Shown: in pieces, positions 16,989 to 35,331 of the stretch
Position numbering within the stretch: position 1 is the first letter of the stretch
Layout: each line of letters starts with the position of its first letter
Source of the DNA: Thermoplasmata archaeon
GTDB taxonomy: Archaea; Thermoplasmatota; Thermoplasmata; Lutacidiplasmatales; UBA184
Assembly: GCA_021828195.1 (NCBI GenBank)
Contig: JAKASQ010000004.1
Coordinates: 1 to 64,000 of the forward strand
DNA length: 64,000 nucleotides
Direction: 5' to 3'
Notes under the pieces: model-generated
Told to the model about the DNA's origin: nothing
Database searches by the model: none
What the model saw: only the letters and a program-made list of their open reading frames with translations
Translations under genes and position numbers: made by a program

Positions 16989-17825
16989 ATGAGCGTGGTT
17001 GCCCACCTGCCACGGCGCGTCCTCTCGCTGGTCGAGGAGGAAGCTCCGGACCCCCCGTCGATGAACCTGACGGGTCGCGAGCGGATGACCGTGTCAGACC
17101 GGACGCTCGCCGAGCAGATGTTCACCGAGTTCCGCCAGGATCCCCGGCATCATGAGTTCGTACTCGGATGCCTCAACTGCGGCGAGTGCACCACGGGTTG
17201 CCCGGCGGCTCGATTCTACGACTTTTCCCCTCGCGAGATGCTCCAGATCGCCCAGACGGGGGACGCCACGACCCTCTGGGACGCGATGCAGGAAAAGATC
17301 TGGGCCTGTTGCCAATGCTACACCTGCAACATGCGTTGCCGCTTCGGTAACGACATCGCGGGGATCATCAGCGTGATGCGGGAGCTCTCCGTCCGTCACG
17401 GTGTGGAGGCGACGCGGCGCACGCTCTCCCCGTTCAATCGGTCCCTCACCCTGCTGATGACCGTTGGCACCCAGGTCTCCTCCGACATGATCCAGCCGGA
17501 CTTCTTCCGCGATTGGGGCCCGTTCGCCGCGGGGTCGGAGCAGGTGTGGGGCGTGAGCGCGGAGGTCATGCGCAAGGCCATCCCCCTCGACGTCCTGCAG
17601 ACGACTACGTCGTCGTGGGAGGTGTCGGTGCAGACGTCCCTCGAACTGTTCCGGATCTACGAGCAGACCGGGGTTCTCGACATGCTGCGCGGGCTCGATC
17701 CGGATCTCACGGAGATGCTCGTGGACCTCATCGAGGAGCGACGCGAGGAGTTTACCGAGGCGCGCGAGCGGTACCGGACCGAGATCGAGCGCATGCACGG
17801 GCCGGTGGCCACGTTTTCCGGGTGA
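16989..17825 (+). CDS. shdrC1: sulfur-oxidising heterodisulfide reductase-like subunit sHdrC1
   Basis: 278-residue iron-sulfur protein of the cytoplasmic sHdr complex, which oxidises protein-bound sulfane sulfur. Two [4Fe-4S] motifs are visible: CLNCGECTTGC (Cys61-71) and CCQCYTCNMRC (Cys107-117). A long helical C-terminal domain (about 150-278) distinguishes it from HdrC of methanogens. ATG 16989 begins the operon shdrC1-B1-A-H-C2-B2-lbpA, the order known from bacteria such as Hyphomicrobium and from sulfur-oxidising archaea. An AT-richer CCTTATCAT about 40 bases upstream may be the promoter. Confidence 0.9.
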   Translation: MSVVAHLPRRVLSLVEEEAPDPPSMNLTGRERMTVSDRTLAEQMFTEFRQDPRHHEFVLGCLNCGECTTGCPAARFYDFSPREMLQIAQTGDATTLWDAMQEKIWACCQCYTCNMRCRFGNDIAGIISVMRELSVRHGVEATRRTLSPFNRSLTLLMTVGTQVSSDMIQPDFFRDWGPFAAGSEQVWGVSAEVMRKAIPLDVLQTTTSSWEVSVQTSLELFRIYEQTGVLDMLRGLDPDLTEMLVDLIEERREEFTEARERYRTEIERMHGPVATFSG

Positions 17826-17834
17826 GGAGGGACC

Positions 17835-19142
17835 ATGCTCAACGCGACCCAGATTCGCCAGGTGATCGAGGAACGGACGGAACGCCGGCACGGGACCGGA
17901 AAGAAGGTCGTCGACGTACGGGAGGAGATGGACCGTCTCGAGGACCAGGGGGAGCTCATCGTCCACCGCATCCGGCCCGAGAATCGGCCGGTCGAGATGA
18001 AGACCCTGTTCGGTTGGACCAAGCGGATCCCCACCAACCGGCTCTGGCATCACAAGTCCTGCGGCCAGTGCGGGAACATCCCCGGCTACCCCTCGTCCCT
18101 CCTGTGGGTGATGAACGAAACCGGGCGCTCGTACCTCAACGAGCCCCACCAAACCTCCTGCACGGCTTGGAACTATCACGGGACGGCGACGTCGAATCCC
18201 GTCGCCCTCGCGGCGGTCGCGGCGCGAAACTTCCACCGCGCCTACGAGACCGACAATTTCCCGCTGATCCATTGCGGCACGAGCTTCGGCGATTACAAGG
18301 AGATGCGCAAGCTCCTGGTCGAGAACGCGGAGATCCGGCACAAGGTCCGCGACGTGCTCCGTTCGATGGACCGGGACCTGGTGCTGCCGGAGGAGATCGT
18401 CCACTATTCGGAGTGGGTGCAGGCGATGACCCCCGAGATCGTCGCCCGCCAGAAGATCGCGGCGTCGGGCGTGGTCGCGACCGTGCACGAACCCTGTCAC
18501 TACTACAAGATGGTGCCCGAAGACGCGATCTACGATGACGCCGTCTATCAGGGGCAGAGACCGGCGGTACCGACGGGGATCCTCCTGGCCCTCGGTGCGA
18601 CGGTCGCCGACTACTCGACCTGGTACGACTGTTGCGGGTTCGGGTTCCGCCACATCCTCAGCGAGCGGGAGTTCAGCCGATCGTTCGCGAACCTGCGCAA
18701 GATCCGGCCGATGGTCGAGGAGGCCCATTCGGACGTTGCGATCACCAGCGACACGGGCTGTGTCACGACGCTCGACAAGAGCCAGTGGATTGGGAAAGCC
18801 CACGGCCAGCCGTACCTGCTGCCGGTCCTTTCGGACATCCAGTTCGTCGCCCTCACGATGGGGGCGCATCCCTACAAGATCGCCCAGCTCCATTGGCATG
18901 CGGCTCCCGTCGATCGGCTCCTCGACCGCCTCGGGATTGACTGGCGGACCGCGAAGACCGAGTTCCTCGACTACCTTCGGCAACTCAAGAGCGGGGGCGC
19001 GCCCGAACTTCTGCACCCGCCGCGGGAGGATATCGAGCGGTTCTTTGCCATCAACAAGGGGCAGGTCCTGCCGGACGAAACCCGGGCGACCCCTCCGCCG
19101 TCACCGGTCCCCGTCCCGAGCGCGGGGAGAGGCGGGCGTTGA
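17835..19142 (+). CDS. shdrB1: sulfur-oxidising heterodisulfide reductase-like subunit sHdrB1
   Basis: 435 residues. HdrB-type proteins carry cysteine-rich CCG domains that bind noncubane [4Fe-4S] clusters and form the disulfide-active site. Here the CCG-like parts include HHKSCGQCGN (about 70), HEPCHYYK and YDCCGFGF. The protein is longer than methanogen HdrB, as usual for sHdrB1. Ten bases separate it from shdrC1, with a GAGG ribosome-binding site, and its stop overlaps the TTG of shdrA. Pro-rich C-terminal tail. Confidence 0.88.
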   Translation: MLNATQIRQVIEERTERRHGTGKKVVDVREEMDRLEDQGELIVHRIRPENRPVEMKTLFGWTKRIPTNRLWHHKSCGQCGNIPGYPSSLLWVMNETGRSYLNEPHQTSCTAWNYHGTATSNPVALAAVAARNFHRAYETDNFPLIHCGTSFGDYKEMRKLLVENAEIRHKVRDVLRSMDRDLVLPEEIVHYSEWVQAMTPEIVARQKIAASGVVATVHEPCHYYKMVPEDAIYDDAVYQGQRPAVPTGILLALGATVADYSTWYDCCGFGFRHILSEREFSRSFANLRKIRPMVEEAHSDVAITSDTGCVTTLDKSQWIGKAHGQPYLLPVLSDIQFVALTMGAHPYKIAQLHWHAAPVDRLLDRLGIDWRTAKTEFLDYLRQLKSGGAPELLHPPREDIERFFAINKGQVLPDETRATPPPSPVPVPSAGRGGR

Positions 19143-20176
19143 ATCCGATTCTGGTGCTGGGCGCCGGGCCGGCCGGTCTGAGCGCTGCGGCGGAGCTCGC
19201 GAGCCTCGGTGCGCCCACCCTATTGGTGGAGAAGGAGTCCTACCTCGGCGGCAATCCGACGCGGTGGCATTACTCGCTCCTGGCGCCGGACCTTCGGCCC
19301 GCCGAGGAGATCCTGGGACCGCTCATCCAGCGGGTGGAACACAACCCGAAGATCGAGCTGCACACCGGCTCGCTCATCGCCCGCGCGGAGCCCGAAGGGA
19401 AGGGGTACCGGGTGTCGCTCCAGTCCAAGGATACCGTCCAGACGCGGGAGGTCAGCGCGGTCATCTTGGCTACGGGATTCGACCACTTCGACTCCCGCCG
19501 CAAGTTCGAGTACGGCTACGGACACTTTCCCGACGTGCTCGATTTCAAGGAGCTCGAGGGGATGATCCACGACGACAAGGTCCTCCGACCGTCCGACGGG
19601 AAGCCTCCGCGGCGGATCGCCTGGATCCTGTGCGTCGGTTCCCGCGACATCCAGATCGGCAATCCGTGGTGCTGCCGGATGGGGTGCGTCGTCAGCATCA
19701 AGCAGGCGGTCGAGATCCGCCAGAAACATCCCGAGATCGACGCGTACATTTACTACATGGACGTCCGAACCTACGGCCTCTGGGAAGACCTCTACTGGAA
19801 GTCGATGCAGGAGTACGGGGTCAAGTTCATCCGGGGGCGGATCGGCGCGGTCTCCCTGACGGAGGGCGGGAAGCGCCTCATCGCGACGGGCGAGGACACG
19901 ATCCTGAGCCGACCCACCGAAGTTCCCTTCGACCTGATCGTGCTCGCGAGCGGGATGGAACCGGGGACCGGGACGAAGGAGGCCTCCGAGCTCTTCCACG
20001 TACCGGTCGGTCCCGAGGGGTTCCTCACGCCCAAGCTTTCCGACATGAACACCATTGATTCGGGCCTACCGGGGATCTACTTCGCCGGCGCGGCGACCGG
20101 CCCGAAGGCGATCCCCGACGCGATCACGGAAGGTATGGGGGCGGCGCTTCGTGCGTTCCAGTACGCTCGCGAGTGA
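19139..20176 (+). CDS. shdrA: sulfur-oxidising heterodisulfide reductase-like subunit sHdrA
   Basis: 345-residue FAD subunit. It starts with TTG 19139 and has an immediate dinucleotide motif LGAGPAGLSAAAEL (residues 6-19), then VEKESYLGGN for FAD binding. A Cys group NPWCCRMGC near residue 180 ligates an atypical cluster in this family, and the C-terminal FAD motif is IYFAGAATGPKAIPDAI. sHdrA is shorter than methanogen HdrA and lacks its extra ferredoxin domains; that matches this sequence. It mediates electron transfer within the sHdr complex. Overlaps the next gene by 26 bases. Confidence 0.92.
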   Translation: MNPILVLGAGPAGLSAAAELASLGAPTLLVEKESYLGGNPTRWHYSLLAPDLRPAEEILGPLIQRVEHNPKIELHTGSLIARAEPEGKGYRVSLQSKDTVQTREVSAVILATGFDHFDSRRKFEYGYGHFPDVLDFKELEGMIHDDKVLRPSDGKPPRRIAWILCVGSRDIQIGNPWCCRMGCVVSIKQAVEIRQKHPEIDAYIYYMDVRTYGLWEDLYWKSMQEYGVKFIRGRIGAVSLTEGGKRLIATGEDTILSRPTEVPFDLIVLASGMEPGTGTKEASELFHVPVGPEGFLTPKLSDMNTIDSGLPGIYFAGAATGPKAIPDAITEGMGAALRAFQYARE

Positions 20177-20903
20177 TCCGGCCGACCCGCGGGGCGTCGC
20201 CTCCCGCGTCGATCCGGCGAAGGTCGCCTCGGCGTGGGAGCGGTGGGTCGTTCCGTGCGGCTCCGAGCCGATCAACCGTCTCGAGACCCTGCTCGAACGG
20301 AAGTTCGCGGAAGGACAGCAGCTCGGCCGGCTTCCCGACGCCGAGTTCGGCGCTCGGTGGACCGTCTTTCTCGACGCGATCGTCTCCACCCGACCGTATC
20401 GGCCGGCGATCGTGGAGGCGACGGATGCCCGCCGGATCCGGTCGCTGGTCGAGAAGGTCCGGGCCGGCGGCTTCTCGGCGCGCGACCTGCCGGCCCTCGC
20501 CGACGAGCTCTCCGGCGCGCCACGGGATGTACGGATCGATGTCGCGGCCGAGCTGCTCCACGCCGCCGCCCCCGACCGATCGGGACTCTTGACCCGGTGG
20601 GTCTGGAACCCGGAGCGGGGCACCGGCATCCTCGCGGAGTTCGTGGCCCCGGGCCCGACCCGGTTCCCGGAGGTCCAGGCACGCCTCGGCGAGATCCGGC
20701 TCGAGCTCGCGGCTCTCGGATTTCCTTCGGCGACCTTCGCCTCGGTCGATATTTTGCTCGCCCTCGCCTATTCGGTGCGTCTCTCCGAGGCGACGGACCG
20801 AAGCTTCCAGGGAGGTGGGATGGAGAGCCTGCTGCCCGGCACGCTCGGTCTCGCGTCGATGGTCCTCGGGGTGCGGAGGTGGATCGTTCGTGCCGATAGT
20901 TGA
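20151..20903 (+). CDS. shdrH: sHdrH-like accessory protein of the sHdr operon
   Basis: 250 residues from GTG 20151, inside the end of shdrA. It sits between shdrA and shdrC2, exactly where sHdr operons carry the hypothetical gene hdrH (or its archaeal counterpart). It is soluble and helical, with no cysteine clusters or nucleotide motif. Segments such as WERWVVPCGSEPINRLETLL and ILLALAYSVRLSE can be made out. Identity rests mainly on position and size, so the name is tentative. The stop region overlaps the shdrC2 start. Confidence 0.65.
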   Translation: MRSSTLASDPADPRGVASRVDPAKVASAWERWVVPCGSEPINRLETLLERKFAEGQQLGRLPDAEFGARWTVFLDAIVSTRPYRPAIVEATDARRIRSLVEKVRAGGFSARDLPALADELSGAPRDVRIDVAAELLHAAAPDRSGLLTRWVWNPERGTGILAEFVAPGPTRFPEVQARLGEIRLELAALGFPSATFASVDILLALAYSVRLSEATDRSFQGGGMESLLPGTLGLASMVLGVRRWIVRADS

Positions 20904-21621
20904 GAAGTCGCTCGTCCGCGTCAAGCGGACGGAAAAGCTCGAGCTCGATGGGATCGACGTCTCGGGCGATTGGAACACGTTCCTGGAGTCCCGGGTCCAG
21001 ACCGACCTCGACGTCGGCATCGTCGACTGGGTCCGTTCCCAACCCCAGGGCGACACCATCGACCGATGCTGGCAGTGCGGGACCTGCACGGCCGGCTGCT
21101 GCATGCACACCGACTACGGCCTCGAGGAGTTCAACCCCCGCTATTTCATCTACCTCGCTCAGATCGGATACGAGGAGGAATTGCGGCGCTATGCCCAGAC
21201 GATCTGGCGGTGCGTGTCGTGCAACAAGTGCGTCGAGCGTTGTCCCAAAGGCGTCAAGGTCGAGGAGGTCGTCCATACGATCGGGACCTACCTCGAAGCG
21301 AGCGGCCGGGCGCCCGAGAGCCCCGCGGATCGCTTCGACCGTGCCTACACCGAAAATCTTCTCGACCGCGGCATCCTCGACGAGGCCGGTCTGTTCCGGA
21401 CGTACGAGCGGCTCGAGGGCCGCAAGACGCCGGTCCGAGAGCTCCTGCGCATGGGAACCTCCTTGCTGCTGAGCGGCCGTCTCCACACCGGTCCGCTCGC
21501 CCACCGGACCAAGGGATGGCGCCGAATGCGCCCGGTCCTGAAGGGGCTGCTCGACGAGGACCTCCGCCAGCGGCGGGAGAGCGCCCAAGCCACGCGACCG
21601 GTCGGCCGGAGGGAACCGTGA
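20890..21621 (+). CDS. shdrC2: sulfur-oxidising heterodisulfide reductase-like subunit sHdrC2
   Basis: 243 residues from GTG 20890 (PIVEKSLVRV). Two [4Fe-4S] motifs: CWQCGTCTAGCC near residue 60 and CVSCNKCVERCP near residue 110. The C-terminal half is helical. It would carry electrons between sHdrA and sHdrB2. Overlaps both neighbours, so translation of the whole operon is tightly coupled. Having a C2-B2 pair in addition to C1-B1 fits the type I sHdr arrangement rather than type II. Confidence 0.9.
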   Translation: MPIVEKSLVRVKRTEKLELDGIDVSGDWNTFLESRVQTDLDVGIVDWVRSQPQGDTIDRCWQCGTCTAGCCMHTDYGLEEFNPRYFIYLAQIGYEEELRRYAQTIWRCVSCNKCVERCPKGVKVEEVVHTIGTYLEASGRAPESPADRFDRAYTENLLDRGILDEAGLFRTYERLEGRKTPVRELLRMGTSLLLSGRLHTGPLAHRTKGWRRMRPVLKGLLDEDLRQRRESAQATRPVGRREP

Positions 21622-22550
21622 TTGATCGTTCGCAGTCCCGGGGACCGTCCGACCCGGTGCCAGCGTACTATCCCGGCTGCTCGATGGACGGCCTGGGAAA
21701 GGCGTATGAGGTCTCCTGCCAGCTCGTGCTCGACCGGCTCGGTCTCGCGATGGACCGGATCGTCGACTACAACTGCTGCGGGGCGACCGAGGTGAAGAAC
21801 CTCAGCGAGGAGGTTTCTCTGACCCTGCCCGCGCGCAATCTCTCCATGGCCCGGTCGATGGGTCGCCACGAGGTGATCGCCGCCTGCAACGGCTGCGTCT
21901 ATTCCCTGACGCGGGCGAACGACGCGGACGAGACGACCCGGAGCCGGATCAATTCCCATCTCGAAAAGGGCGGGGCGCCGGCCTACGACGGGGAGGCAAA
22001 CGTCCAGCATGTCCTCGAGTTCATCCACAATCGCGCCGGGGTACCCCGCGTCCGCGCCGCGGTGCGGCGGCCGCTCGCCGGGCTCAAGGTGGCGCCGTAC
22101 TACGGCTGTCTGTACTCCCGGCCCAAACGGTACACGGGCGTCGGGGTCACGCCGGGGACGGACAATCCGGAGCATCCGTTCTTCCTCGACGAGCTCCTGG
22201 AAGCGTGCGGGGCGACGGTGATGCGCGACTATCTGGCGAAGACGATCTGCTGCGGCGGCGGCCATGCGTTGAGCGACCTCGACGTCAGTGTTGCGTTCAG
22301 CGCCTCGGTCATGAACGAAGCGAAGCGGGCCGGGGCGGACCTGGTCGCGACGATCTGTCCCCTCGGCCAGATCAACATCGAGAACAACCTCGACCGGATC
22401 CGCCAGGCCTACGGGGAGGAAACCCTCGTCCCCGTGGCGTACTTCACCCAACTGATGGCGCTCGCGTTGGGCGCGAGCATGCGTGAGGCGCGTCTCAAGG
22501 ACAACTTCTCCCGGCCCGACCGATTCCTGCGCGAGCGCGGGTTCCACTGA
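21618..22550 (+). CDS. shdrB2: sulfur-oxidising heterodisulfide reductase-like subunit sHdrB2
   Basis: 310 residues from GTG 21618. Two complete CCG domains are visible: YYPGCSMDG, YNCCGATE and CNGCVY in the first; YYGCLYSRP, ICCGGGHALSD and ICPLG in the second. This cysteine set binds the paired noncubane clusters used for disulfide cleavage in HdrB. The likely partner is a lipoyl disulfide on LbpA or a thiol bound to sHdr. Nine bases before lbpA1. Confidence 0.92.
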   Translation: MIDRSQSRGPSDPVPAYYPGCSMDGLGKAYEVSCQLVLDRLGLAMDRIVDYNCCGATEVKNLSEEVSLTLPARNLSMARSMGRHEVIAACNGCVYSLTRANDADETTRSRINSHLEKGGAPAYDGEANVQHVLEFIHNRAGVPRVRAAVRRPLAGLKVAPYYGCLYSRPKRYTGVGVTPGTDNPEHPFFLDELLEACGATVMRDYLAKTICCGGGHALSDLDVSVAFSASVMNEAKRAGADLVATICPLGQINIENNLDRIRQAYGEETLVPVAYFTQLMALALGASMREARLKDNFSRPDRFLRERGFH

Positions 22551-22558
22551 AAGGTACC

Positions 22559-23008
22559 ATGACGATCTTGAACGGATGCGAATTTCCCGACGGACTGCTC
22601 TACTACGTCGAACGCACGCAGATGACCTGGGTCCGCCTGGACGGCGAGGAAGCCCGGGTCGGCCTGACCGATCCGGCGCAGACCCGGGCCGGCAAGATCC
22701 TGCATCTGCGGATCAAGGCGGCCGGTACCGCCCGGGAGCGGGGCCGACCCGTCGCCACGGTCGAGAGCGGAAAGTGGGCCGGGCCCGTCATGGCGCCCCT
22801 CACCGGGGTCGTCGTCGAGCCGAACCCCGAGGTCGAGAAGGACCCGGGGCTGCTCAACACCGATCCGTACGGGGCGGGGTGGATCGTCCGGCTCAAGATC
22901 TCGAAGCCCGAAGAGCTGCGAGACCTCCTCGAAGGGCCGGCGGCGACCGCGCGGTTCCGGGAGATCCTGGAGAAGGACAATATACGCTGCATGCGTTGCA
23001 AGGAGTGA
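22559..23008 (+). CDS. lbpA1: lipoate-binding protein LbpA (GcvH-like) of the sHdr pathway
   Basis: 149-residue lipoyl-domain protein resembling GcvH. The lipoyl-lysine is Lys72 in the hairpin VESGKWAGP. The flanking VGLTDPAQTRAGKIL and DPYGAGWIVRL are typical of LbpA/GcvH. No glycine-cleavage genes are nearby and it directly follows shdrB2, so it is the sHdr-dedicated carrier rather than GcvH. The C-terminus adds a CMRC pair not found in ordinary GcvH. Its lipoate is thought to accept electrons or sulfur during thiol oxidation. Confidence 0.9.
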   Translation: MTILNGCEFPDGLLYYVERTQMTWVRLDGEEARVGLTDPAQTRAGKILHLRIKAAGTARERGRPVATVESGKWAGPVMAPLTGVVVEPNPEVEKDPGLLNTDPYGAGWIVRLKISKPEELRDLLEGPAATARFREILEKDNIRCMRCKE

Positions 23009-23015: not shown

Positions 23016-23420
23016 ATGTCGACCGACCTAGGGACCCCGGCTCCGGCGGACCCGACCGGGAAGAAGATCCTGATGATCATGACAACCGGTCCGGAAGACC
23101 CGGACAAGACCTACGCCCCGTTCTACACCGCCGCGCTCATGGCGGCGATGGAGATCGACACGACGATGTACTTCCTCATGCACGCCCCCGAACTGCTCCG
23201 GAAGGGGGCGGCGGAAGCGGTCCCGCTCAAGAAGGGCGGGAACCTGAAGATGTTCGTCGACATGGCGCTCGAGAACGGCGTGAAGCTCATGGCCTGCGCC
23301 GAGAGCTGCCGGGACCTGTGCGAGATCGCCGAGACGGACCTGATCGATGGGGTCCGGCTCGTCGGGTCGGCGACCCTCGCCGACCTGGCGCTCGAAGCGG
23401 ACTCGGTGATCTCGTTCTGA
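23016..23420 (+). CDS. DsrE-family sulfurtransferase (DsrE3-like)
   Basis: 134 residues, DsrE/DsrF-like alpha/beta fold with KKILMIMTTGPEDP at the N-terminus. Candidate sulfur-carrying cysteines occur in LMACAESCRDLCE (about residues 95-107). DsrE3-type proteins shuttle sulfane sulfur with TusA in sHdr organisms. Located 7 bases after lbpA1 and 3 before the lipoate ligase, it is in the sHdr operon. The subclass is judged from context. Confidence 0.8.
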   Translation: MSTDLGTPAPADPTGKKILMIMTTGPEDPDKTYAPFYTAALMAAMEIDTTMYFLMHAPELLRKGAAEAVPLKKGGNLKMFVDMALENGVKLMACAESCRDLCEIAETDLIDGVRLVGSATLADLALEADSVISF

Positions 23421-23423
23421 GCC

Positions 23424-24581
23424 ATGGAACCGGACCGGGCCAGTACGGTCGAGTGGCGCTGGCTCGACCTCGGCAGCGTCGACGGTCCGACGATGGTCAA
23501 TGTCTTCGTCTCGCTCGCGGGCCCCGTGGGCCGGCGCGAATCGTTGCCGACCGTCGTGGTCCTGCACCCCGCCGCGCCGTTCGCCAACGTCGGCTACCAC
23601 CAGGAGGCCGACCGGGAGATCGACCTCGAGTACTGTCGGGGAGCGGGGATACCGGTCGTCCGCCGGGTCGTCGGTGGAGGGGCCATCCTGGACGGGCCGT
23701 GGGAACAGGATTACATGGTCATCGTGCCGAACGGGACGGCGGGCACAGAGGCGGGCGTCGGCCCGTTCTACGACCGTTTCCTCGGGCCGGTCCAGCGCAC
23801 GCTCGCGAGGCTCGGGGTGCGGGCCGAGCGCTCCGGGGTCAACGACCTCGCAGTGGCGGGTCGGAAAGTCAGCGCCAACGGCGCGCTCTCCCTCGACGGG
23901 AGCTGGGTGCTCGTCGGCGACATCCTGCGCGAGCTCGACGTCGCGGCCATGACCCGGGTCCTGCGGGTCCCGGACGAGAAGTTTCGTGGCAAGCTCGCGA
24001 AGGGAATGGACGAGTGGCTGACGTCGCTGACGGCGTTGCTCGGGAGTGCGCCGTCCCGGACCGCGATCACCCGGGCCCTCCGGGAGGAGTACGAGCGGGA
24101 GTTCGGGGTCTCCCTCGTTCCCGGCTCCCTGACCGAGGCCGAGGTCGGGACGCTGACGCGCCTCCGCGCCGAGCGATCGAGCGATGCATGGACGTTCCTC
24201 AAGGAGTCCTCCCACCCGGGGTTCCGGTCTCCCGACCTCCCGCCGCCGGGCCGGTCGGTGAAGATCGCCCACGACACCTACCTCGGGCGCAGCGACCGCA
24301 AGGCAGGCAAGCTGGTCCGGGTGACCCTGCGCTCCCGCGGCGGGGCGGTCGAGGAGATCGAGATATCGGGGGACTTCTTCACCCAGCCGTTCGCCGGTCA
24401 CTTGGACGAGCTTGAGGCGTCGCTCGTCGGCTGCCGGCTCGAGCGCGGCCCGCTCGAAGGCGCGATCGCGCGCTGGGCCGCCGACCGGAAGGTCGCCTTG
24501 CTGGGGATCTCGGGGTCGGACCTCGTCGGTGCGATTCTCGACGCCGGCCCCCCGGCCGCCGGGAATCCGGCACCGCCCTAG
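23424..24581 (+). CDS. slpl1: lipoate:protein ligase of the sHdr type (sLplA/B-like), first copy
   Basis: 385 residues. The cofactor transferase core is recognisable: YHQEADREID (usual GxxQ region), RRVVGGGAILDG (the RR-x2-GGG-x4 lipoyl-AMP loop), NDLAVAGRKVSANG with the conserved Lys that holds the lipoyl carboxylate. A C-terminal accessory domain (about 260-385) resembles an LplB part. It should attach lipoate or a precursor to LbpA. It closes the + strand sHdr operon. Its TAG stop overlaps the stop of the opposing second ligase in the palindrome CTAG, so the two ligases meet tail to tail. Confidence 0.85.
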   Translation: MEPDRASTVEWRWLDLGSVDGPTMVNVFVSLAGPVGRRESLPTVVVLHPAAPFANVGYHQEADREIDLEYCRGAGIPVVRRVVGGGAILDGPWEQDYMVIVPNGTAGTEAGVGPFYDRFLGPVQRTLARLGVRAERSGVNDLAVAGRKVSANGALSLDGSWVLVGDILRELDVAAMTRVLRVPDEKFRGKLAKGMDEWLTSLTALLGSAPSRTAITRALREEYEREFGVSLVPGSLTEAEVGTLTRLRAERSSDAWTFLKESSHPGFRSPDLPPPGRSVKIAHDTYLGRSDRKAGKLVRVTLRSRGGAVEEIEISGDFFTQPFAGHLDELEASLVGCRLERGPLEGAIARWAADRKVALLGISGSDLVGAILDAGPPAAGNPAPP

Positions 24582-26473: not shown

Positions 26474-26481
26474 GCGGATCT

Positions 26482-26951: not shown

Positions 26952-27191
26952 CTACTTGTGTTCCAGGACGAACCGGTAGAATCCCGCCTTCTCTTCGTTC
27001 GCCACGAGCGGATTCCCCGTCCGCTTGGCGAACGCGACGAAGTCGGAAGGCGCCGCCGGATCATCGGCCAGAACTTCGAGATGTTCTCCGCGGCCCAGCG
27101 TGCCGAGCATCTCGCTGGCCTTGAGGATCGGCATCGGACAGAAGAGCCCGCGAGCATCCAGCTTGGCCTTCGATTCCATGGAGGATTCCAT
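26952..27191 (-). CDS. tusA: sulfur carrier protein TusA
   Basis: 79 residues. The two-layer TusA fold begins LDARGLFCPMPILKA with active Cys18 in the CPxP motif. TusA holds sulfane sulfur as a persulfide and passes it to DsrE proteins and then to sHdr. The start may be ATG 27191 or ATG 27179; both precede the domain. First gene of the - strand operon tusA-dsrE2-DUF1641-lbpA2-slpl2. Confidence 0.92.
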   Translation of the reverse strand: MESSMESKAKLDARGLFCPMPILKASEMLGTLGRGEHLEVLADDPAAPSDFVAFAKRTGNPLVANEEKAGFYRFVLEHK

Positions 27192-27330: not shown

Positions 27331-27702
27331 TCAACGCACGGAGAGTTCGATGTCGAACGTGCGTCGATCGAGGATCGTCTCTCTTGGGATCGTGAGGATA
27401 TGACGGTACGCCGGGAACAGGTCGGCGCCAAACCGATCGCAGAACGCCGCATTCTCGGCTCCGAAGGCCACCTCGCCGAGCGCGACGAACTCGTCGTCCT
27501 CCCGCAAGAGCACTCCGGCCGCGTGAAAGATCGGTCCGGCCATCATTCCCGAGACCCCCGGGAACTCGAGCGGGGCCGGGTCCCGGTAGCGGATGTAGAC
27601 GACCCGAAGGGGTCCCGAAGGACCGACCGGCTGGTCCTTGCCCGCAGGGTCCCCGGCCATCGGTAGTGGCACGAACGTCTCGCGCTCCTTCGGTCCGCTC
27701 AT
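27331..27702 (-). CDS. unknown protein of the dsrEFH operon, 123 aa
   Basis: ATG 27702 overlaps the dsrH stop (ATGA). Sequence is alpha/beta-like, for example RVVYIRYRDPAPLEF and AGVLLREDDEFVALGEVAFG, with one Cys (AAFCDRF). No metal or nucleotide motif and no known family that I can name. The repeated VALGEVAFG-NAAF pattern hints at a ligand-binding or sensor fold. Last gene of the mrp-dsrEFH operon, thus probably linked to sulfur handling. Confidence 0.65.
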   Translation of the reverse strand: MSGPKERETFVPLPMAGDPAGKDQPVGPSGPLRVVYIRYRDPAPLEFPGVSGMMAGPIFHAAGVLLREDDEFVALGEVAFGAENAAFCDRFGADLFPAYRHILTIPRETILDRRTFDIELSVR

Positions 27703-28028
27703 GGAAGTTCTATCACCTTCGCGGCCTCAAAGAGCCAGGTGACGATCTGTGCGTACGTCACTGGAATGACCGATCCGTCCGAGCCGCCGCGGATCCCCCG
27801 TCCGCGGAACTCCTCCTCCAGAACGTAGAGTCGGGCCGGTGCTCCGGAGGAGGGGACGCGAGGCATGTCGGCCCGATAGCTCGCCGTGCCCAAGAGGATG
27901 CGATGGAGCCGCGCCCCCGCGCGTGCTGCGACGCGGAGGAGCGCGTTCAAGATCTCTTCCTCCTCGACTCCGGGCGCGCTCTGGTGGAGAACGATCCACA
28001 GGGGCCCGGGCGCCGAGTCCCCGGTCAC
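27699..28028 (-). CDS. DsrH/TusB-like protein
   Basis: 109 residues from GTG 28028, coupled to the preceding gene by GTGA. It has the DsrE-superfamily pattern WIVLHQSAPG...EILNALLRVAARAG and ends TYAQIVTWLFEAAKVIELP. It lacks a clear active Cys. With the next two genes upstream it would form a DsrEFH-type heteromer that accepts sulfur from TusA. Assignment as the H subunit is by size and order. Confidence 0.65.
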   Translation of the reverse strand: MTGDSAPGPLWIVLHQSAPGVEEEEILNALLRVAARAGARLHRILLGTASYRADMPRVPSSGAPARLYVLEEEFRGRGIRGGSDGSVIPVTYAQIVTWLFEAAKVIELP

Positions 28029-28375
28029 AACGGCACCACCCGATCCGCCCGCACCAACCATTCGGCAACCTCGTCCGTATCCACCACGGTCACCGGGAGG
28101 TCCGCGATGAGCTCCGCCGGGAGGATCGACCGCCGGGCGAGCGAGTCGCCGTGGACGAGGGCCGGCGAATCCGCTGCAATGATCCCCCGAAGCAGTTGCT
28201 CGAGGGGGGGCCCCAGCCGATGAGGCTCCTGCCCGTGGACCAGCGCGCGGACGCCCTCGCCGACGAACAGGAGACGCACCGGCGTTCCGAGCGCGACCGT
28301 CATCGCCGATGCGCGGATCGTCTCGGCGAGGTGATTGGTCGAGTAGGGCGCGTGCCGGACCCAGAACAGGATCAT
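28025..28375 (-). CDS. DsrF/TusC-like protein
   Basis: 116 residues. It begins MILFWVRHAPYSTNHLAET and continues with the DsrEF-like helix and strand ALGTPVRLLFVGEGVRALV. Ends DEVAEWLVRADRVVPL, like other DsrF/TusC members. No cysteine is seen. Seven bases after dsrE. Confidence 0.68.
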   Translation of the reverse strand: MILFWVRHAPYSTNHLAETIRASAMTVALGTPVRLLFVGEGVRALVHGQEPHRLGPPLEQLLRGIIAADSPALVHGDSLARRSILPAELIADLPVTVVDTDEVAEWLVRADRVVPL

Positions 28376-28382
28376 CCTCGGT

Positions 28383-28739
28383 CTACTCCTCTTGGGTCAG
28401 CGCGACGAATCGGTCGGAGCGGGCGAGCAGATCCGATAGGTCCTCGAGCGTTCCGTTGCGCGCGTTGGGGATCAGCGCGCTGTCGGAAAGACCTCGAAAT
28501 CGGGCGCAGGTCGCGCAGTTGATGAGGGTCACGGAACGCGGCAGCCGGGCGAACTGCGTCACCACCGAGTCCGCACCCGCCTCGAGGTGGGCCCGACTGG
28601 TGCAGTACACCCCGTCCCCCAGAAAGAAGACGGTGACTTCGTGGCCGAGCTCGGCCGCGCTCGCTGCGAGACCGACCCCGACGGCGGGCAACCGGTGCTG
28701 TACCGGCGAGGGGAACACGAGGACTCCTAGGGTGCCCAC
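28383..28739 (-). CDS. DsrE/TusD-like sulfurtransferase
   Basis: 118 residues, starting MGTLGVLVFPSPVQH. The DsrE fold shows in LGHEVTVFFLGDGVYC, and the likely sulfur-binding cysteines are in LINCATCARFRG. This is the Cys-bearing E subunit of the predicted DsrEFH complex. In Dsr organisms DsrEFH goes with DsrC, but no dsrAB or dsrC is in the window, so here it probably feeds sHdr. Confidence 0.75.
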   Translation of the reverse strand: MGTLGVLVFPSPVQHRLPAVGVGLAASAAELGHEVTVFFLGDGVYCTSRAHLEAGADSVVTQFARLPRSVTLINCATCARFRGLSDSALIPNARNGTLEDLSDLLARSDRFVALTQEE

Positions 28740-28990: not shown

Positions 28991-29872
28991 TCAGACCTCC
29001 GGATGACGGGCGGCCGCGATGCGATCGGCGAGCAGCTTGAGCCGTCGCGCGAGGACGGAGCCGTCGTCGCTCGAGAACTCCTCGAGGCGTCCGGCGTCCG
29101 ACAGGCCCGGCACCTGGGGCGAGATCGGGAGGCTTCCCAGAAACGGGACTCCCATGCGGGTCGCGTACTCGGCGCCGCGGGACGGGCCGAACAGGTCGAC
29201 GCGTTCCCCGTGGGGACAGACGAGATAGGCCATGTTCTCCACGAGGCCCAGGATCGGCGCGTGGAAGGTCCGCGCCATCTCCGCCGCCTTTGCGACGACT
29301 TCCGCGGAGAGCTCCGTCGGGGCCGTGACCAGTACGACCCCGTCCGGGTCCAGCGACTGGAAGACCGTCATCGGGGCGTCGCTCGTCCCCGGCGGAAGGT
29401 CGACCAGGAGGTAGTCGAGCACGGGCCAGGCGGTATCTCGGTACAGGCCGCGGATGGCACTGTTCACCATCGGGCCCCGCCAAATCAACGGGATCTTGCT
29501 CGCGGCGGTGACGGAGGCCATCGACATCACGTACACTCCCGCCTTCGAGCGGAGCGGTGCGATCGTTCGACCGTCCGGGTTCAGTTGCGGAGCCTCGGCG
29601 ACACCGAATACCCTCGCGATCGAGGGGCCTGTGATGTCGGCGTCGAGCACTCCCACGGTCGCCCCCGCCCGGTTGAGTTCGCTCGCGAGGTACGCGGTCA
29701 CGAACGTCTTCCCGACTCCGCCCTTCCCCGATATGATCGCGACGACGCATCGAATCCGGGTGCGGTCCAGCCGGCCGATGGCGAACGTCGCGTCCGGAGT
29801 GGTCGGCGAGCGGGGGAGAGGCGGGAGGACGGGGAGCGGGATATCGTCGGTCTCCTCGGTAGGCTCCGGCAT
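28991..29872 (-). CDS. Mrp/NBP35-family ATP-binding protein (Fe-S carrier)
   Basis: 293 residues from ATG 29872 (MPEPTEETDD); the frame continues upstream but that part is antisense to the DUF1059 and fixX genes. Deviant Walker A SGKGGVGKT (about 48-56), switch DADITGPSIARV, and DLPPGTSD are all present. A CPHG motif near residue 213 takes the place of the usual cluster CxxC. These proteins load [4Fe-4S] clusters on targets. The sHdr and AprB proteins nearby need many clusters, which explains its place as first gene of the mrp-orf79-dsrEFH operon. Confidence 0.88.
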   Translation of the reverse strand: MPEPTEETDDIPLPVLPPLPRSPTTPDATFAIGRLDRTRIRCVVAIISGKGGVGKTFVTAYLASELNRAGATVGVLDADITGPSIARVFGVAEAPQLNPDGRTIAPLRSKAGVYVMSMASVTAASKIPLIWRGPMVNSAIRGLYRDTAWPVLDYLLVDLPPGTSDAPMTVFQSLDPDGVVLVTAPTELSAEVVAKAAEMARTFHAPILGLVENMAYLVCPHGERVDLFGPSRGAEYATRMGVPFLGSLPISPQVPGLSDAGRLEEFSSDDGSVLARRLKLLADRIAAARHPEV

Positions 29873-30232: not shown

Positions 30233-30526
30233 GTGGCCGCCCGCCTGAGCATCTCGGAGCGCCTCGGGGCGAACTCGTTCACCACGGACCGGGTCTCCCA
30301 TCTCAAGATCGCCGACGTGCGACTCTGCCAGACCTGTGCGCTCCGGCCGTGCATCAAGGTCTGTCCGGCCGAGGTGTACCACTGGGAGGGCGACCACCTC
30401 CGGATCAACTACGAGAACTGTCTCGAGCTCGGGGCGTGCCGGGTGGCGTGCCAGGAACTGGGGAACCACGCCCTCGAGTGGGAGTTTCCCGTGGGGAGCC
30501 GGGGCGTCCACTACCGCTACGGGTAG
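30233..30526 (+). CDS. fixX: FixX-like ferredoxin
   Basis: 97 residues from GTG 30233. Cysteine clusters CQTCALRPCIKVCPAEV and CLELGACRVAC, and the C-terminal VGSRGVHYRYG, match FixX, the 2x[4Fe-4S]-like partner of FixC in ETF:quinone oxidoreductases. Remarkably, it is not beside fixC (14571-15860) but across the whole sHdr cluster, directly before aprBA. This suggests the ETF-FixCX branch serves the sulfur pathway. Confidence 0.88.
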   Translation: MAARLSISERLGANSFTTDRVSHLKIADVRLCQTCALRPCIKVCPAEVYHWEGDHLRINYENCLELGACRVACQELGNHALEWEFPVGSRGVHYRYG

Positions 30527-30713: not shown

Positions 30714-31163
30714 ATGCCTACCTACGTGATGACTGACAAGTGCAAAGGCTGCATGGAGTGCGTCAAGATCTGCCCGAGCGATATCATGCATATCGACCCC
30801 GTGCAAGGGCGGGCCTACAACATCGAACCGGCGATGTGCTGGGAATGTTACGCGTGCGTGAAGGCGTGTCCGGAAGCGGCGATCGACGTTCGCGGGTACG
30901 CCGACTTCGCTCCCCTCGGGCACAGCGTGGTCCCGATGCGTACCGCCGATCGGATCGTCTGGAAGATCCGGATGCTGGGCGGAGAGACCAAGGAGTTCAC
31001 GTTCCCGATCCGCACCACTCCCTGGGGATCGATACGGGCGCCGCAGGACGCGCCCGAACCGACCCACGACGCGGCCCGCAGCGAGCTCCTCTCCTTCGAG
31101 CCCGACTATCTGGCGGTCGATGCGCTGCCGACCCTGCCCCGTCCGACCACGGCGGGTGCCTGA
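30714..31163 (+). CDS. aprB: adenylylsulfate (APS) reductase subunit beta
   Basis: 149 residues from ATG 30714 (MPTYVMTDKC). Two [4Fe-4S] motifs: CKGCMECVKICPS (about 9-21) and CWECYACVKACPE (about 43-55), followed by the family's beta sheet and C-terminal tail that wraps around AprA (IRMLGGETKEFTFPI). AprB passes electrons to or from the FAD of AprA. In an sHdr organism the pair works oxidatively: sulfite + AMP to APS. 19 bases before aprA. Confidence 0.95.
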   Translation: MPTYVMTDKCKGCMECVKICPSDIMHIDPVQGRAYNIEPAMCWECYACVKACPEAAIDVRGYADFAPLGHSVVPMRTADRIVWKIRMLGGETKEFTFPIRTTPWGSIRAPQDAPEPTHDAARSELLSFEPDYLAVDALPTLPRPTTAGA

Positions 31164-31182
31164 TCATCGGAGGGAGCCGAAG

Positions 31183-33021
31183 ATGGACGAGGCTCAACCC
31201 CACCCCACGCACGTCGTCGACTGCGACATCCTGATCGTCGGCGGCGGTTTCGCCGGCTGCGGTGCGGCCTACGAGGCGCGCTACTGGGGCCGCGACCTCA
31301 AGATCGTCATCGCCGAGAAGGCCGCGATCGAGCGGAGCGGCGCGGTCGCCCAGGGACTCTCGGCGATCAACTGCTACATGGGCATGCGCTGGAACGAGAA
31401 CCAGCCCGAAGACTTCGTCCGCTACGTGCGGAACGACCTCATGGGCCTCTCCCGAGAGGACCTCGTCTACGACATGGCCCGACACGTCGACTCGACCGTC
31501 CATATGCTGGAGGAGTGGGGACTCCCGATCTTCACCGACCCCAAGACCGGTCGGTACGTGCGCGAAGGTCGCTGGCAGGTCATGATCCACGGCGAGTCGT
31601 ACAAGCCGATCGTCGCCGAGGCGGCTCGCAAAGCCGCCTCGGAGCTCTACGAGCGAATCGTGGTGACCCACCTCCTGCCGGACGCGAAGGACCCGAAGCG
31701 GGTCGCCGGGGCGGTCGGGATCAATGTCCGCGATGGCTCGTTCTACGTCTTCCGCGCGAAGGCCGTCATCGTGGCAGCGGCCGGCGCCTCCCACATCTAC
31801 CGCCCGCGCTCCGCCGGCGAAGGCTCGGGACGGACCTGGTACCCACCGTGGGCGACCGGGTCGGCCTACGCGCTCCTCATTCAGATGGGCGCCGAGATGA
31901 CCCAAATGGAGAACCGACTGGTCGTGACCCGGTTCAAGGACGGCTACGGGCCCGTCGGGGCATGGTTCCTCCTGTTGAAGGCGGTGGCGACCAACGCCGC
32001 AGGCGAGCACTTCGAATCCGCCCGGCTCCCCGAGCTCAGAACCCGGGTCGGGGCGTACGCCGACGCGAAGCCGATGCCGACCTGCCTGAGGAACCACCTC
32101 ATGCTCCAGGAGATCCTTGAGGGGAAGGGACCGATCCTGTTGCACACCGAACGCGTCCTCGACACCCCCGAGAAGGAAACGATCGGCTGGGAGGATTTCC
32201 TGAACATGACGATCGGCCAGGCGGTCACCTGGGCCTCCCAAGGGATCGAACCGACGAAGGACCCGTCGGAGCTCATCCTCTCCGAACCGTACGTGATGGG
32301 CTCCCATGCCGTCTGCGCAGGGGCGTGGACGAGCGGTCCCCAGGACGTCGCGCTGGGGGAGTACTCATGGGGGTACAACCGCATGACGACGGTGGCGGGA
32401 CTGTTCGGAGCGGGGGACACCGTGGGCGGTTCCGCCCACAAGTTCTCGAGCGGGTCGTTCACCGAGGGCCGTCTCGCGGCCAAAGCTGCGGTCGCATTCG
32501 TCCGGGACCACGCCGAGGCGCCGACCGTCGGGGAGGAGGAGATCGCCCGGTTCCGCAGCACGGTCTACGCGCCGTTGGACCGGTACGCGGAGAAGCGCGG
32601 GAACGTGACGGCGGGGACCGTGAGCCCAGACTACCTGTTCCCCGATCAGGGATTGAACCGCCTCGAGAAGATCATGGACGAGTACGCGGGCGGCGTCAGC
32701 GCCAACTACACGACCAACGAGCACCTGCTGACCCGCGCTCTCGAGCATCTTCGCCGGCTCCGGGTCGACCTCGGATCGATGGGGGCACGGGACCTCCACC
32801 AGCTTCAGCGCGTCTGGGAGCTCGACCACCGCCTCTGGACGGCCGAAGCCGTCGTCCGACACACGCTCTTCCGGCAGGAGACGCGCTGGCCCGGGTACTA
32901 CTACCGTGCCGACTATCCCCACGTGGACGACGAGAAGTGGCACTGTTTCGTCAATTCGGTCTTCGACCCGGCGACCCGCGAGTGGAAGCTGTTCACCCGG
33001 CCGTACCACGCGCTCATCTAG
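31183..33021 (+). CDS. aprA: adenylylsulfate (APS) reductase subunit alpha
   Basis: 612 residues from ATG 31183, with GGAGGGAG ribosome-binding site. FAD-binding motif VGGGFAGCGAAYEA is at residues 16-29. The active-site and FAD segments RSGAVAQGLSAINCY and GASHIYRPRSAGEGSGR are present, and the C-terminal RWPGYYYRADYP and WHCFVNSVFD are diagnostic for AprA. Full family length. It lies in the operon aprB-aprA-phosphatase-sat. Confidence 0.96.
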   Translation: MDEAQPHPTHVVDCDILIVGGGFAGCGAAYEARYWGRDLKIVIAEKAAIERSGAVAQGLSAINCYMGMRWNENQPEDFVRYVRNDLMGLSREDLVYDMARHVDSTVHMLEEWGLPIFTDPKTGRYVREGRWQVMIHGESYKPIVAEAARKAASELYERIVVTHLLPDAKDPKRVAGAVGINVRDGSFYVFRAKAVIVAAAGASHIYRPRSAGEGSGRTWYPPWATGSAYALLIQMGAEMTQMENRLVVTRFKDGYGPVGAWFLLLKAVATNAAGEHFESARLPELRTRVGAYADAKPMPTCLRNHLMLQEILEGKGPILLHTERVLDTPEKETIGWEDFLNMTIGQAVTWASQGIEPTKDPSELILSEPYVMGSHAVCAGAWTSGPQDVALGEYSWGYNRMTTVAGLFGAGDTVGGSAHKFSSGSFTEGRLAAKAAVAFVRDHAEAPTVGEEEIARFRSTVYAPLDRYAEKRGNVTAGTVSPDYLFPDQGLNRLEKIMDEYAGGVSANYTTNEHLLTRALEHLRRLRVDLGSMGARDLHQLQRVWELDHRLWTAEAVVRHTLFRQETRWPGYYYRADYPHVDDEKWHCFVNSVFDPATREWKLFTRPYHALI

Positions 33022-33067
33022 TGGCTCCGCGTCGGACGCACATGCCTCGTGCGGATTCCGCCAGGGG

Positions 33068-34168
33068 ATGGCGCCCGTGAACCACGTCGAGGCGGTGGCC
33101 GACGACCCCCGGTACCTCGAGGGCAAGCCGGCATCCGAGTTCCATGCCTTCCTCGACGAGGTCTTCGCGGGTCTGGCAGAGTCGAACGGGACGGCGTTGG
33201 CCCGGGTTCGGTCCGACCGCCCCGTGCAGGTGATCGCGGACAGCCACGGGGATTACGTCTCCGTCGGGCGGGCGCTTCGCTATGCGCGGAGCCACGATCC
33301 GCCCCACCGGTTCGTTGGGCTCGGGGATTACATCGACCGGGCCACGTGTGGGGACCCGAAACCCACGGCGCTCCCGGGGGGGTCGATCTGGAACCTCGCA
33401 TTCCTGCTGGCTTGGGCGACCCGAGCCCCCGATGAGGTGCTGCTGCTCCGCGGCAACCACGAGGCGCCCCGACGGTTCCCCGTGCCGGTGATGACGTTCC
33501 TCAAGGAGTTGCGTCGGCACTTCCCGCGCGAGGAGGCGTTCGGCCTCTACTGTCGCTGTCTCGATGTGTGCGACCGCCTTCCGGCGGCGGCGGCGACCGA
33601 GAACGGGGTCTTCCTCGCCCACGGGGGGATACCGCCCGGTTCGGCTTCCGCCCGGCTCGGGTCGCGACCGATCGATGATCGGGTCCTCGAAGGGCTCCTT
33701 TGGAGCGATCCGGCCGAGGACTACGAGGACCGGGGGATCGGTTTCTCCTATACCGCGAAAGACCTCGAGCGATTCCTCGGGAGGAACCGCTGGCGCGTGA
33801 TGGTCAAGGGCCACGCCCCGGCGCATCTCGGACGGTCGATGTACGGGCGGCAGCTGCTCACGATCCATACGTCGGACCTCTTCCAGGATCTCGGTCACCG
33901 CGGCATCCTGATGGCCGAGATCCCCGCGATCCGACGCGTCCGCTCGACCCGGGACCTGACCGTGCGCCAGCTCGTCCGCGGCGACTGGAAGCCGTACCGC
34001 GTGGCGGAGGGTCCCGCGGGACCCCGTCGGCGTTCCGTTCCCGCTCGAGGTCGAAAGGGACGACCAGGCGTCCCGATCCCCGCCGTCATGCGTCGCGACG
34101 GGGCCGGTCCTCCCCACCGACACACTCTAATGCCCCGGAAGTTCGGACCGGACGGGTTGGATCCGTGA
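33068..34168 (+). CDS. PPP-family metallophosphatase (protein phosphatase / ApaH-like)
   Basis: 366 residues from ATG 33068. PPP metal-binding motifs in order: ADSHGDY (usually GDxHG; the first Gly is Ala here), GLGDYIDRA, LLRGNHEAPRR, then HGGIPP and KGHAP. This family includes Ser/Thr protein phosphatases and the diadenosine tetraphosphatase ApaH. The C-terminal ~60 residues are basic and Pro-rich. Its stop overlaps the sat GTG (GTGA), so it is inside the apr-sat operon. A role in regulating these enzymes or in removing adenylated by-products is possible but unproven. Confidence 0.8.
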   Translation: MAPVNHVEAVADDPRYLEGKPASEFHAFLDEVFAGLAESNGTALARVRSDRPVQVIADSHGDYVSVGRALRYARSHDPPHRFVGLGDYIDRATCGDPKPTALPGGSIWNLAFLLAWATRAPDEVLLLRGNHEAPRRFPVPVMTFLKELRRHFPREEAFGLYCRCLDVCDRLPAAAATENGVFLAHGGIPPGSASARLGSRPIDDRVLEGLLWSDPAEDYEDRGIGFSYTAKDLERFLGRNRWRVMVKGHAPAHLGRSMYGRQLLTIHTSDLFQDLGHRGILMAEIPAIRRVRSTRDLTVRQLVRGDWKPYRVAEGPAGPRRRSVPARGRKGRPGVPIPAVMRRDGAGPPHRHTLMPRKFGPDGLDP

Positions 34169-35331
34169 TCCCCCATCCCCACGGCGGACGGCTCATCGAT
34201 CGTCTTCGGCCCGAAGGCGAAGTCGCTCGGCGCGAATCCGAAGCGCGCGACCTGCTTCGCATCATCCCGTTCGTGGACGAGGTCTACGACGCGGAGAAGA
34301 TCGGTCTCGGCGCGTACAGCCCGCTCGACGGTTTCCAGGACAGTGCCACCCTCGATTCGGTCCTCTCGCGCGGGCGCCTTCTGAACGACCTCCCCTGGAC
34401 GATGCCGATCCTCCTGGCACCGCCGGGGAGCGAGAACCAGGCGGTCGTCGAGTCGGCGCGTCCCGGTGACGAGGTCGGGCTGTTCGCCCCCGACGGCCGG
34501 TTGTTCGCCCTCCTCCACTTGGAGGAAAAGTACCCCTACGATAAGAAGCGGGTCGCGCAGGCCACCTACGCGACGACCGACCCGGCACACCCCAACGTCG
34601 GCGACCTCCTGGCCTCGGGCGATACCGTCCTAGCGGGCACGATCGACCTCCTTCGCCGGCTCGATCACCCTACCGGCGCTCTGGAGCTTGGGCCCGCAGA
34701 GACGCGGGCGGAGTTCGCCCGTCGTGGGTGGAAGACGGTCGTCGCCTACCAGACCCGGAACGTGCCCCACACCGCGCACGAATACCTGCAGCGATGCGCC
34801 CTCGAGCGGGAGGAGGTCGACGGCATGCTGATCCATCCGGTCCTCGGCCGGTTGAAGAAGGGGGACTACCGGCCCAGCGTCGTGCTCGAAGCCTACCAGG
34901 CCCTGATCCAGAACTACTACCCGACGGACCGAGTGATGCTGGCCTCGCTGAGCATCACGATGCGGTACGCGGGACCGAAGGCCGCACTCTTTCTCGCGAT
35001 CGTCCGGAAGAATTTCGGCTGCGGGGAGTACATCGTCGGGCGCGACCAGGCCGGGGTCGGCAAGTACTACGACCCGTTCGCCTGCCAACGGATCTTCGAC
35101 GAGTTCCCGATCGAGGTCCTACCGCTCAAGTTCGCGGAGACGTTCTTCTGTCGCCGGTGCGGTTGGATGGCGACATCGCGCACCTGCGTGCACCCGCCGG
35201 AATCCCGGGTGGACACCAGCCAGAGCCGCATCCGCACGGCCCTGTCGAAAGGGGATGCCCTCCCGATGGAGATCATCCGCCCCGAGGTCGCGCGCGTCCT
35301 GGCCCGCGGCGACGTGCTCCTGCCCTCCTGA
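34165..35331 (+). CDS. sat: ATP sulfurylase (sulfate adenylyltransferase)
   Basis: 388 residues from GTG 34165. Active-site motifs QTRNVPHTAHE (near 193), GRLKKGDY, and GRDQAGVG (near 293) are all conserved, as is KFAETFFCRRC with the zinc-site Cys. No APS-kinase domain. With AprAB the reaction would run towards ATP and sulfate from APS and PPi, giving substrate-level phosphorylation. Last gene of the operon. Confidence 0.95.
   Translation: MIPHPHGGRLIDRLRPEGEVARRESEARDLLRIIPFVDEVYDAEKIGLGAYSPLDGFQDSATLDSVLSRGRLLNDLPWTMPILLAPPGSENQAVVESARPGDEVGLFAPDGRLFALLHLEEKYPYDKKRVAQATYATTDPAHPNVGDLLASGDTVLAGTIDLLRRLDHPTGALELGPAETRAEFARRGWKTVVAYQTRNVPHTAHEYLQRCALEREEVDGMLIHPVLGRLKKGDYRPSVVLEAYQALIQNYYPTDRVMLASLSITMRYAGPKAALFLAIVRKNFGCGEYIVGRDQAGVGKYYDPFACQRIFDEFPIEVLPLKFAETFFCRRCGWMATSRTCVHPPESRVDTSQSRIRTALSKGDALPMEIIRPEVARVLARGDVLLPS

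Follow-up and report, generated by a model that had tools for sequence, protein, structure and literature searches.

A predicted sulfane-sulfur oxidation island with type I sHdr-LbpA and AprBA-Sat genes in the archaeal class Thermoplasmata

The syntenic gene order shdrC1B1AHC2B2 defines the type I sHdr system (PMC11582611). Its lipoate-binding protein LbpA is matured by sLpl(AB) together with LipS1/S2, and because LipS1/S2 are found in 88.6% of the archaea with sHdr, exceptions to this partnership exist (PMC10332631). In AprBA, a loop after Cys-B13 of AprB goes together with Qmo, the loop-less AprB of sulfur oxidisers goes with AprM, and the enzyme of the AprM type has no known native electron partner (PMC2211403). 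In Thermoplasmata, a sulfur-oxidising potential via heterodisulfide reductase has been noted for E-plasma (PMC10669018). Here we describe an island of shdr, lbpA, aprBA and sat genes in a stretch of 64,000 nt (the window, positions 1-64,000 of the forward strand of contig JAKASQ010000004.1, assembly GCA_021828195.1) from a Thermoplasmata archaeon (GTDB lineage Archaea; Thermoplasmatota; Thermoplasmata; Lutacidiplasmatales; UBA184), whose family is labelled f1 below.

Text searches, which did not extend to the supplementary tables of the sHdr surveys, returned no detailed account of sHdr in Thermoplasmata. A study of 'Ca. Sysuiplasmatales' is said to have proposed the oxidation of reduced sulfur. 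From the observed content, order, conservation and phylogeny of the genes we infer, with a probability of about 0.82, that the products of the island oxidise sulfane sulfur to sulfate in the cytoplasm. The core of that pathway is already known; the transfer of its electrons to the membrane may be undescribed.

Gene content, host and phylogeny of the island

Gene calling and profile searches bore out, at 16989-23008, the order shdrC1-B1-A-H-C2-B2-lbpA given in an earlier note on this DNA, as well as the place and order of all other genes named there. On the plus strand, shdrC1 (16989-17825) and shdrB1 (17835-19142) are followed by shdrA (19139-20176, the start corrected to a TTG at 19139), shdrH (20151-20903, in a reading frame open from 20055), shdrC2 (20890-21621), shdrB2 (21618-22550, the start corrected to a GTG at 21618) and lbpA1 (22559-23008, matching GCV_H), which is the gene order that defines type I sHdr (PMC11582611). 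The sHdrC1 and sHdrC2 proteins match HdrC and 4Fe-4S (Fer4) models, and sHdrB1 and sHdrB2 match the CCG domain, of which sHdrB2 has two stretches; TIGR03288 matches sHdrB2 below its cut-off. The shdrH gene, coding for a hypothetical subunit with no Pfam match, was assigned because of its position and its weak homology to the shdrH gene in L006 (RFFP01000018.1), an Aquificota-type cluster. The contig of L006 is labelled Acidobacteria, and its sHdr cluster is nested inside Aquificota in the trees, so that the label is probably wrong.

The same strand carries aprB (30714-31163; TIGR02060, score 178.8 against a cut-off of 135.65), aprA (31183-33021; TIGR02061, 929 against 642) and the ATP sulfurylase gene sat (34165-35331, the start corrected to a GTG at 34165; PRK04149 over its cut-off). 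With both equivalog models over their cut-offs, AprBA is identified as a dissimilatory adenosine 5'-phosphosulfate (APS) reductase. Trp234, Arg265, Arg317 and His398 in the numbering of A. fulgidus AprA, which we take to be its active-site residues, are conserved in the alignment of the window AprA. The earlier note had overlooked several genes that are described below, namely lbpA2, a second ligase gene, fixX, a metallophosphatase gene between aprA and sat, and etfB-etfA-fixC (12864-15860).

Relatives were surveyed in a sample of 400 genomes of the class Thermoplasmata, here labelled G### with G000 as the window's own genome, and stretches fetched for comparison are labelled L###. Matches to sHdrB1 were found in 31 of the 400 genomes, comprising 28 true sHdr (full-length matches, 66-90% identity) and three distant HdrB (~30% identity). 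AprA is present in 50 genomes and in 27 of the 28 with sHdr, the sole exception (G332) being 80% complete. The co-occurrence of sHdrB1 and AprA has a Fisher p of 4e-27, a value that overstates independence because the genomes are related. Among 20 fetched stretches the same gene order recurs in at least four genera of family f1, with a rearranged version in family f11, and since synteny is conserved in about 20 other genomes, chance is ruled out as an explanation of the arrangement. The dsrE-type protein encoded at 23016-23420 is among the most conserved of the island (81-91% within family f1). The distribution of sHdr in the window's own genus is patchy, as many genomes there, one of them 100% complete, lack sHdrB1. 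One relative, G157 (L116), has two distinct sets of aprBA genes: the AprA of the set immediately upstream of shdrC1 is 65% identical to the window AprA, that of the set at the usual position 88%.

In a tree of joined C1+B1+A sequences, families f1 and f11 form one clade (support 100/99), sister to Sulfolobales (100/99; a single genome on a long branch) and adjoining the type I forms of Aquificota, while the type II forms of Actinomycetota and Chloroflexota stand apart. The sHdrB1 tree places the window protein inside the sHdr group, on a very long branch away from the HdrB of the class. The best PDB match of sHdrA is 6tjr, which we take to be H. denitrificans sHdrA, over the whole length (E = 1.8e-82), compared with methanogen HdrA at E = 4e-62 with only ~240 residues aligned. 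Acidithiobacillus ferrooxidans plasmids (NZ_CP040512.1 16364-17704, L187) carry an orphan sHdrB1-like gene that lies close to a GcvH-like gene, with no other genes of the cluster.

These trees bear on the possibility that the Hdr-like genes are a remnant of methanogen-type HdrABC with some other role. Matches to HdrABC models only below cut-off and the presence of distant HdrB relatives in the same class could be taken in its favour; we rejected it and regard it as extremely improbable, because in both trees the proteins group with sHdr, including that of Sulfolobales, and not with methanogen-type Hdr, the branching that the earlier note had named as a refutation. The short sHdrA, resembling 6tjr and aligning with only part of HdrA, and the linked lbpA, ligase and sulfurtransferase genes also speak against a remnant. 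The other refutation proposed there, a chimeric bin with bacterial flanks, failed as well. The window's genome (1.62 Mb, completeness 93.6%, contamination 0.03%) is a draft of 7 contigs, and a deletion junction described below rests on a single assembly, both of which leave room for a binning or assembly chimera. However, on the one contig the island is bracketed by archaeal-specific genes on both sides (those for aIF2-alpha, S27e and L44e on one, for P1, L10 and L1 on the other), GC content is even along the window, and the same island recurs in many other genomes. A chimera was rejected on these grounds and has in our judgement a negligible probability. The claim of a complete type I sHdr-LbpA cluster with AprBA-Sat in a single island of a Thermoplasmata archaeon is supported.

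Sulfur flow and maturation of LbpA

In the proposed pathway, TusA and DsrE-family proteins would deliver protein-bound sulfane sulfur to the type I sHdr complex (C1-B1-A-H-C2-B2). Using lipoylated LbpA to carry the cofactor, the complex would oxidise this sulfur to sulfite in the cytoplasm. AprBA would join sulfite and AMP to APS, and Sat would turn APS and pyrophosphate into sulfate and ATP. Electrons would pass to the quinone pool and on to a haem-copper oxidase; a link from AprBA through FixX with EtfBA/FixC is possible and is the least certain step. The oxidative direction, from sulfane sulfur through sulfite to sulfate with substrate-level ATP formation by Sat, is favoured because the search of the window's genome for dsrA, extending beyond the window as the earlier note had proposed for dsrAB, gave no match, because a haem-copper oxidase (COX1) is present, and because of the linkage to sHdr. 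RuBisCO had no match in the genome, other carbon-fixation routes not being searched. The new chemolithotroph suggested in the earlier note goes beyond the evidence, and mixotrophy and lithoautotrophy are equally likely.

The sulfur-carrier genes lie between lbpA1 and aprB. A dsrE-type sulfurtransferase gene (23016-23420, plus strand; Pfam DsrE) follows lbpA1, and the minus strand carries a DrsE_2-type gene (26482-26937), tusA (26952-27179; Pfam TusA, CPMP motif) and dsrH-like, dsrF/tusC-like and dsrE/tusD-like genes (27699-28739), the dsrH-like gene being assigned by position only. All genes listed in the earlier note are thus present, although its label dsrE2 for the gene at 26482-26937 did not hold, as NF047629 (DsrE2) matches below its cut-off and the product is better described as DsrE3/DsrE2-like. 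In most relatives an sqr-tusA2-dsrE3b block (sqr for sulfide-quinone reductase, SQR) sits beside a gene for a DUF1641 protein, between lbpA2 and dsrE3. Compared with its sister G239, the window lacks ~2.2 kb containing this block and half of the DUF1641 gene, of which a truncated remnant (26048-26371, minus strand) codes for 107 instead of 226 residues; blastn against L157 placed the junction at 26426-26483. The loss is a deletion in the current assembly, either real or an assembly fault. A search of the window's genome found no close ortholog of the relatives' island SQR elsewhere.

An SQR-like flavoprotein, ~33% identical to the relatives' island SQR, is encoded on contig 6 of the window's genome (141532-142857, L156), with a dsrE gene as its neighbour. 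Its closest PDB chains are 3h8i/3h8l, and bacterial sulfide-quinone reductases also match; it may be the one sulfide oxidase that this genome retains. The claim that the whole route from TusA-bound sulfur to sulfate with ATP gain is encoded in one place is therefore retained for the sHdr, AprBA and Sat genes, which do stand together, and fails for the sulfur-input enzyme, whose block is deleted, and for the lipoyl synthase LipA, which is encoded elsewhere.

Two ligase genes accompany the two lbpA genes. The lplAB-type lipoate:protein ligase gene (23424-24581, plus strand) matches LplA-B_cat and Lip_prot_lig_C, with NF053749 (LplB) below cut-off; on the minus strand, lplA2 (24578-25612; LplA-B_cat) codes for a second lipoate-ligase-like protein and lbpA2 (25609-26001; GCV_H) for a second lipoate-binding protein. 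The lipoyl lysine is retained in LbpA1 (ESGKWAGP) and LbpA2 (ESEKWVGH). LipS1 was found in 0 of 81 family genomes, in a search run without a positive control, and LipS2 in none of the family f1 genomes, in a search in which a control genome was positive; the LipS2 search gave one weak match (24%), in family f11 (G020). Canonical LipA is above cut-off in the window's genome, its gene lying outside the island, and in most relatives tested, with no match in two of them (G254 and G065). Because LipS1/S2 were not found, LipA is above cut-off and the lysine motif is kept in both proteins, LipA or lipoate salvage probably serves LbpA here: the island ligase or ligases would attach the lipoyl groups, with sulfur inserted by LipA or the cofactor obtained by salvage. 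The island thus offers a test of whether canonical LipA can serve LbpA.

AprBA and its possible link to quinone

In the AprA tree, which was built without lineage I oxidisers such as Allochromatium, families f1, f11 and f19 make up a Thermoplasmata clade (100/99) together with a single f31 genome. Archaeoglobus, sulfate reducers and the small number of other bacteria in the tree fall outside it. The loop after Cys-B13 is absent from the window AprB and present in AprB of CSP1-4, Sulfuricellaceae and families f27/f31. No Qmo-like genes were found beside aprBA in the window or in the family f1 loci examined, nor was a membrane gene in the position of aprM, AprM not having been searched elsewhere in the genome; family f11 has a candidate membrane protein, with no Pfam match, in that position. 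A search of plasmids for AprA gave two records only, one of them an unannotated 21.8 kb 'Klebsiella pneumoniae plasmid' (NZ_CP061967.1, 19872-21725) with a gene whose product is 52% identical to the window AprA; the record is possibly mislabelled or a contaminant.

What does recur near aprBA are genes of the electron-transfer flavoprotein (ETF) type. A gene for a FixX-like ferredoxin (30233-30526, plus strand; Fer4_ETF_QO, PRK15449 FixX below cut-off) precedes aprB directly in the window and in most f1 loci, apart from fixC, and is missing from the aprBA loci of G108, G236, G041 and G157. The ETF subunit genes etfB (12864-13607; Pfam ETF) and etfA (13604-14560; Pfam ETF_alpha), both on the plus strand, are of the YdiQR/FixAB type, with PRK11916 matching below cut-off, and are followed on the minus strand by a fixC-like ETF:quinone oxidoreductase gene (14571-15860; ETFQO_UQ-bd, and a PRK10015/FixC-type match of 384 bits that is below cut-off). 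For all four proteins the Pfam models are thus above and the NCBIfam models below their cut-offs. The etfBA-fixC genes adjoin shdr in the window and in G161 and adjoin aprBA in G254, G221, G065 and G224; in G205, which gave no sHdrB1 match, they stand beside fixX-aprBA. A derivation of the window ETF from type II sHdr clusters was rejected, as the EtfA tree shows another lineage. In G254, two genes of the TauE/SafE type (sulfite exporter family) flank fixX-aprBA, one on each side (L158 205-1059 and 5257-6111).

From this arrangement it may be proposed that FixX with EtfBA/FixC links AprBA to quinone, in place of AprM or Qmo. Taken together with the maturation of LbpA by LipA instead of LipS1/S2, the proposal is tentative, and we would sooner doubt the combination than rely on it. 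If it were true, AprBA would have a third way of coupling to quinone, and the LipS1/S2 rule would have an exception. In either case the island provides a direct test of electron transfer from AprBA to quinone with neither Qmo nor AprM nearby.

Several observations weigh against the oxidative pathway as proposed or against parts of it. The sulfur-entry SQR block of the relatives is deleted here, and all that remains is an SQR-like protein of distant homology; lipoylation of LbpA is, in the published view, the task of sLpl(AB)-LipS1/S2 and not of the canonical machinery (PMC10332631); ETF/FixC could serve fatty-acid oxidation; and AprBA-Sat is reversible, with related AprA also in class genomes without sHdr. 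The last point opens the way to a reductive reading, in which AprBA-Sat would reduce sulfate or APS and sHdr would recycle or reduce sulfur. Both enzymes are common to sulfate reducers, and in genomes of families f27 and f31 HdrA-like (Qmo-like) genes come after an aprA whose product resembles that of Archaeoglobus, whereas family f1 shows neither such genes beside aprBA nor the Qmo-type loop in AprB. Together with the missing dsrA match, the oxidase, the type I sHdr linkage and the SQR inside the island of relatives, this makes the reductive reading improbable. For the electron-link step alone the balance is different. An ETF/FixC serving acyl-CoA (fatty-acid) oxidation is about as likely as a link to AprBA; the fuller form of that alternative, in which chance or common regulation would have placed FixX next to aprB and AprBA would use another, unrecognised quinone link, has in our view a little under an even chance. 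It agrees with the best matches of the ETF subunits to YdiQ/YdiR-type models, with an EtfA unrelated to EtfAB of type II sHdr clusters, with the family aprBA loci that lack FixX, and with acyl-CoA dehydrogenase and fadD genes in a related Thermoplasmatota order (PMC9287336). It leaves unaccounted for the fact that in about a dozen loci FixX is detached from fixC and stands immediately ahead of aprB, as well as the position of etfBA-fixC before or after aprBA both in G205 and in genomes whose islands are laid out differently. Oxidation of sulfane sulfur to sulfate remains our preferred reading of the island, with either electron link.

The remaining genes of the island include a small zinc-ribbon protein (16033-16302, plus strand), syntenic with lrp and shdr in relatives, and an Lrp/AsnC-type regulator (16350-16880, plus strand, start approximate; Pfam HTH_AsnC-type and AsnC_trans_reg) directly upstream of shdrC1 in a conserved position. 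An mrp/NUBPL-type Fe-S scaffold ATPase (28991-29872, minus strand; Pfam ParA (NUBPL), 255 bits) lies before fixX, and a calcineurin-like phosphoesterase (33068-34168, plus strand; Pfam Metallophos) between aprA and sat. The conserved island protein x34 (27331-27702, minus strand; 16883-17167 in L125), of unknown function, is represented by 16 sequences from two families that share invariant Y, P, G, E, D and R residues. Its predicted structure is fairly confident (mean predicted local distance difference test score, pLDDT, of 84); x34 has no Pfam match, and a fold search with the predicted model gave no PDB match at E <= 0.001.

Comparison with described systems

The island would place a nearly full route from sulfane sulfur to sulfate in a species-rich, uncultured Thermoplasmata family, and it joins the sHdr of Thermoplasmata with that of Sulfolobales in a single archaeal clade. 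An sHdr relative from Actinomycetes belongs to the same naming series of metagenome-assembled genomes. Should the genes be expressed, these archaea would be producers of sulfate and acid. With the type I sHdr-LbpA systems of Hyphomicrobium, Aquificota and Sulfolobales the island shares the core order shdrC1B1AHC2B2 with lbpA, tusA, dsrE and a lipoate ligase gene, and it clusters with Sulfolobales. It differs from them in that the window's genome has LipA, with LipS1/LipS2 not found, in the presence of AprBA-Sat within the island, and in the linked FixX and EtfBA/FixC. The type II systems of Actinomycetota and Chloroflexota likewise have ETF genes near shdr, but they are characterised by a fused shdrB3 and by etfAB in the cluster, whereas C2 and B2 of the window are separate and its EtfA is of another lineage.

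The compact assembly of shdr with aprBA-sat, which the earlier note had thought noteworthy in this lineage, is not unique, as Chloroflexota CSP1-4 has sat-aprBA beside shdr. CSP1-4 differs from the window in having two further HdrA-like (QmoAB-like) genes after aprA and the Qmo-type AprB loop. Sulfur oxidisers with AprBA-Sat and either AprM (lineage I) or Qmo (lineage II) use the same enzymes, and the window AprB is loop-less like that of lineage I (PMC2211403); the window AprA, however, falls in its own Thermoplasmata clade, in a tree built without lineage I references such as Allochromatium, and no AprM was seen in the f1 loci. Finally, the FixABCX/YdiQRST ETF systems have homologues in EtfBA, FixC and FixX of the window, with the difference that here FixX is detached, lies before aprB, and is linked to genes for sulfite oxidation.

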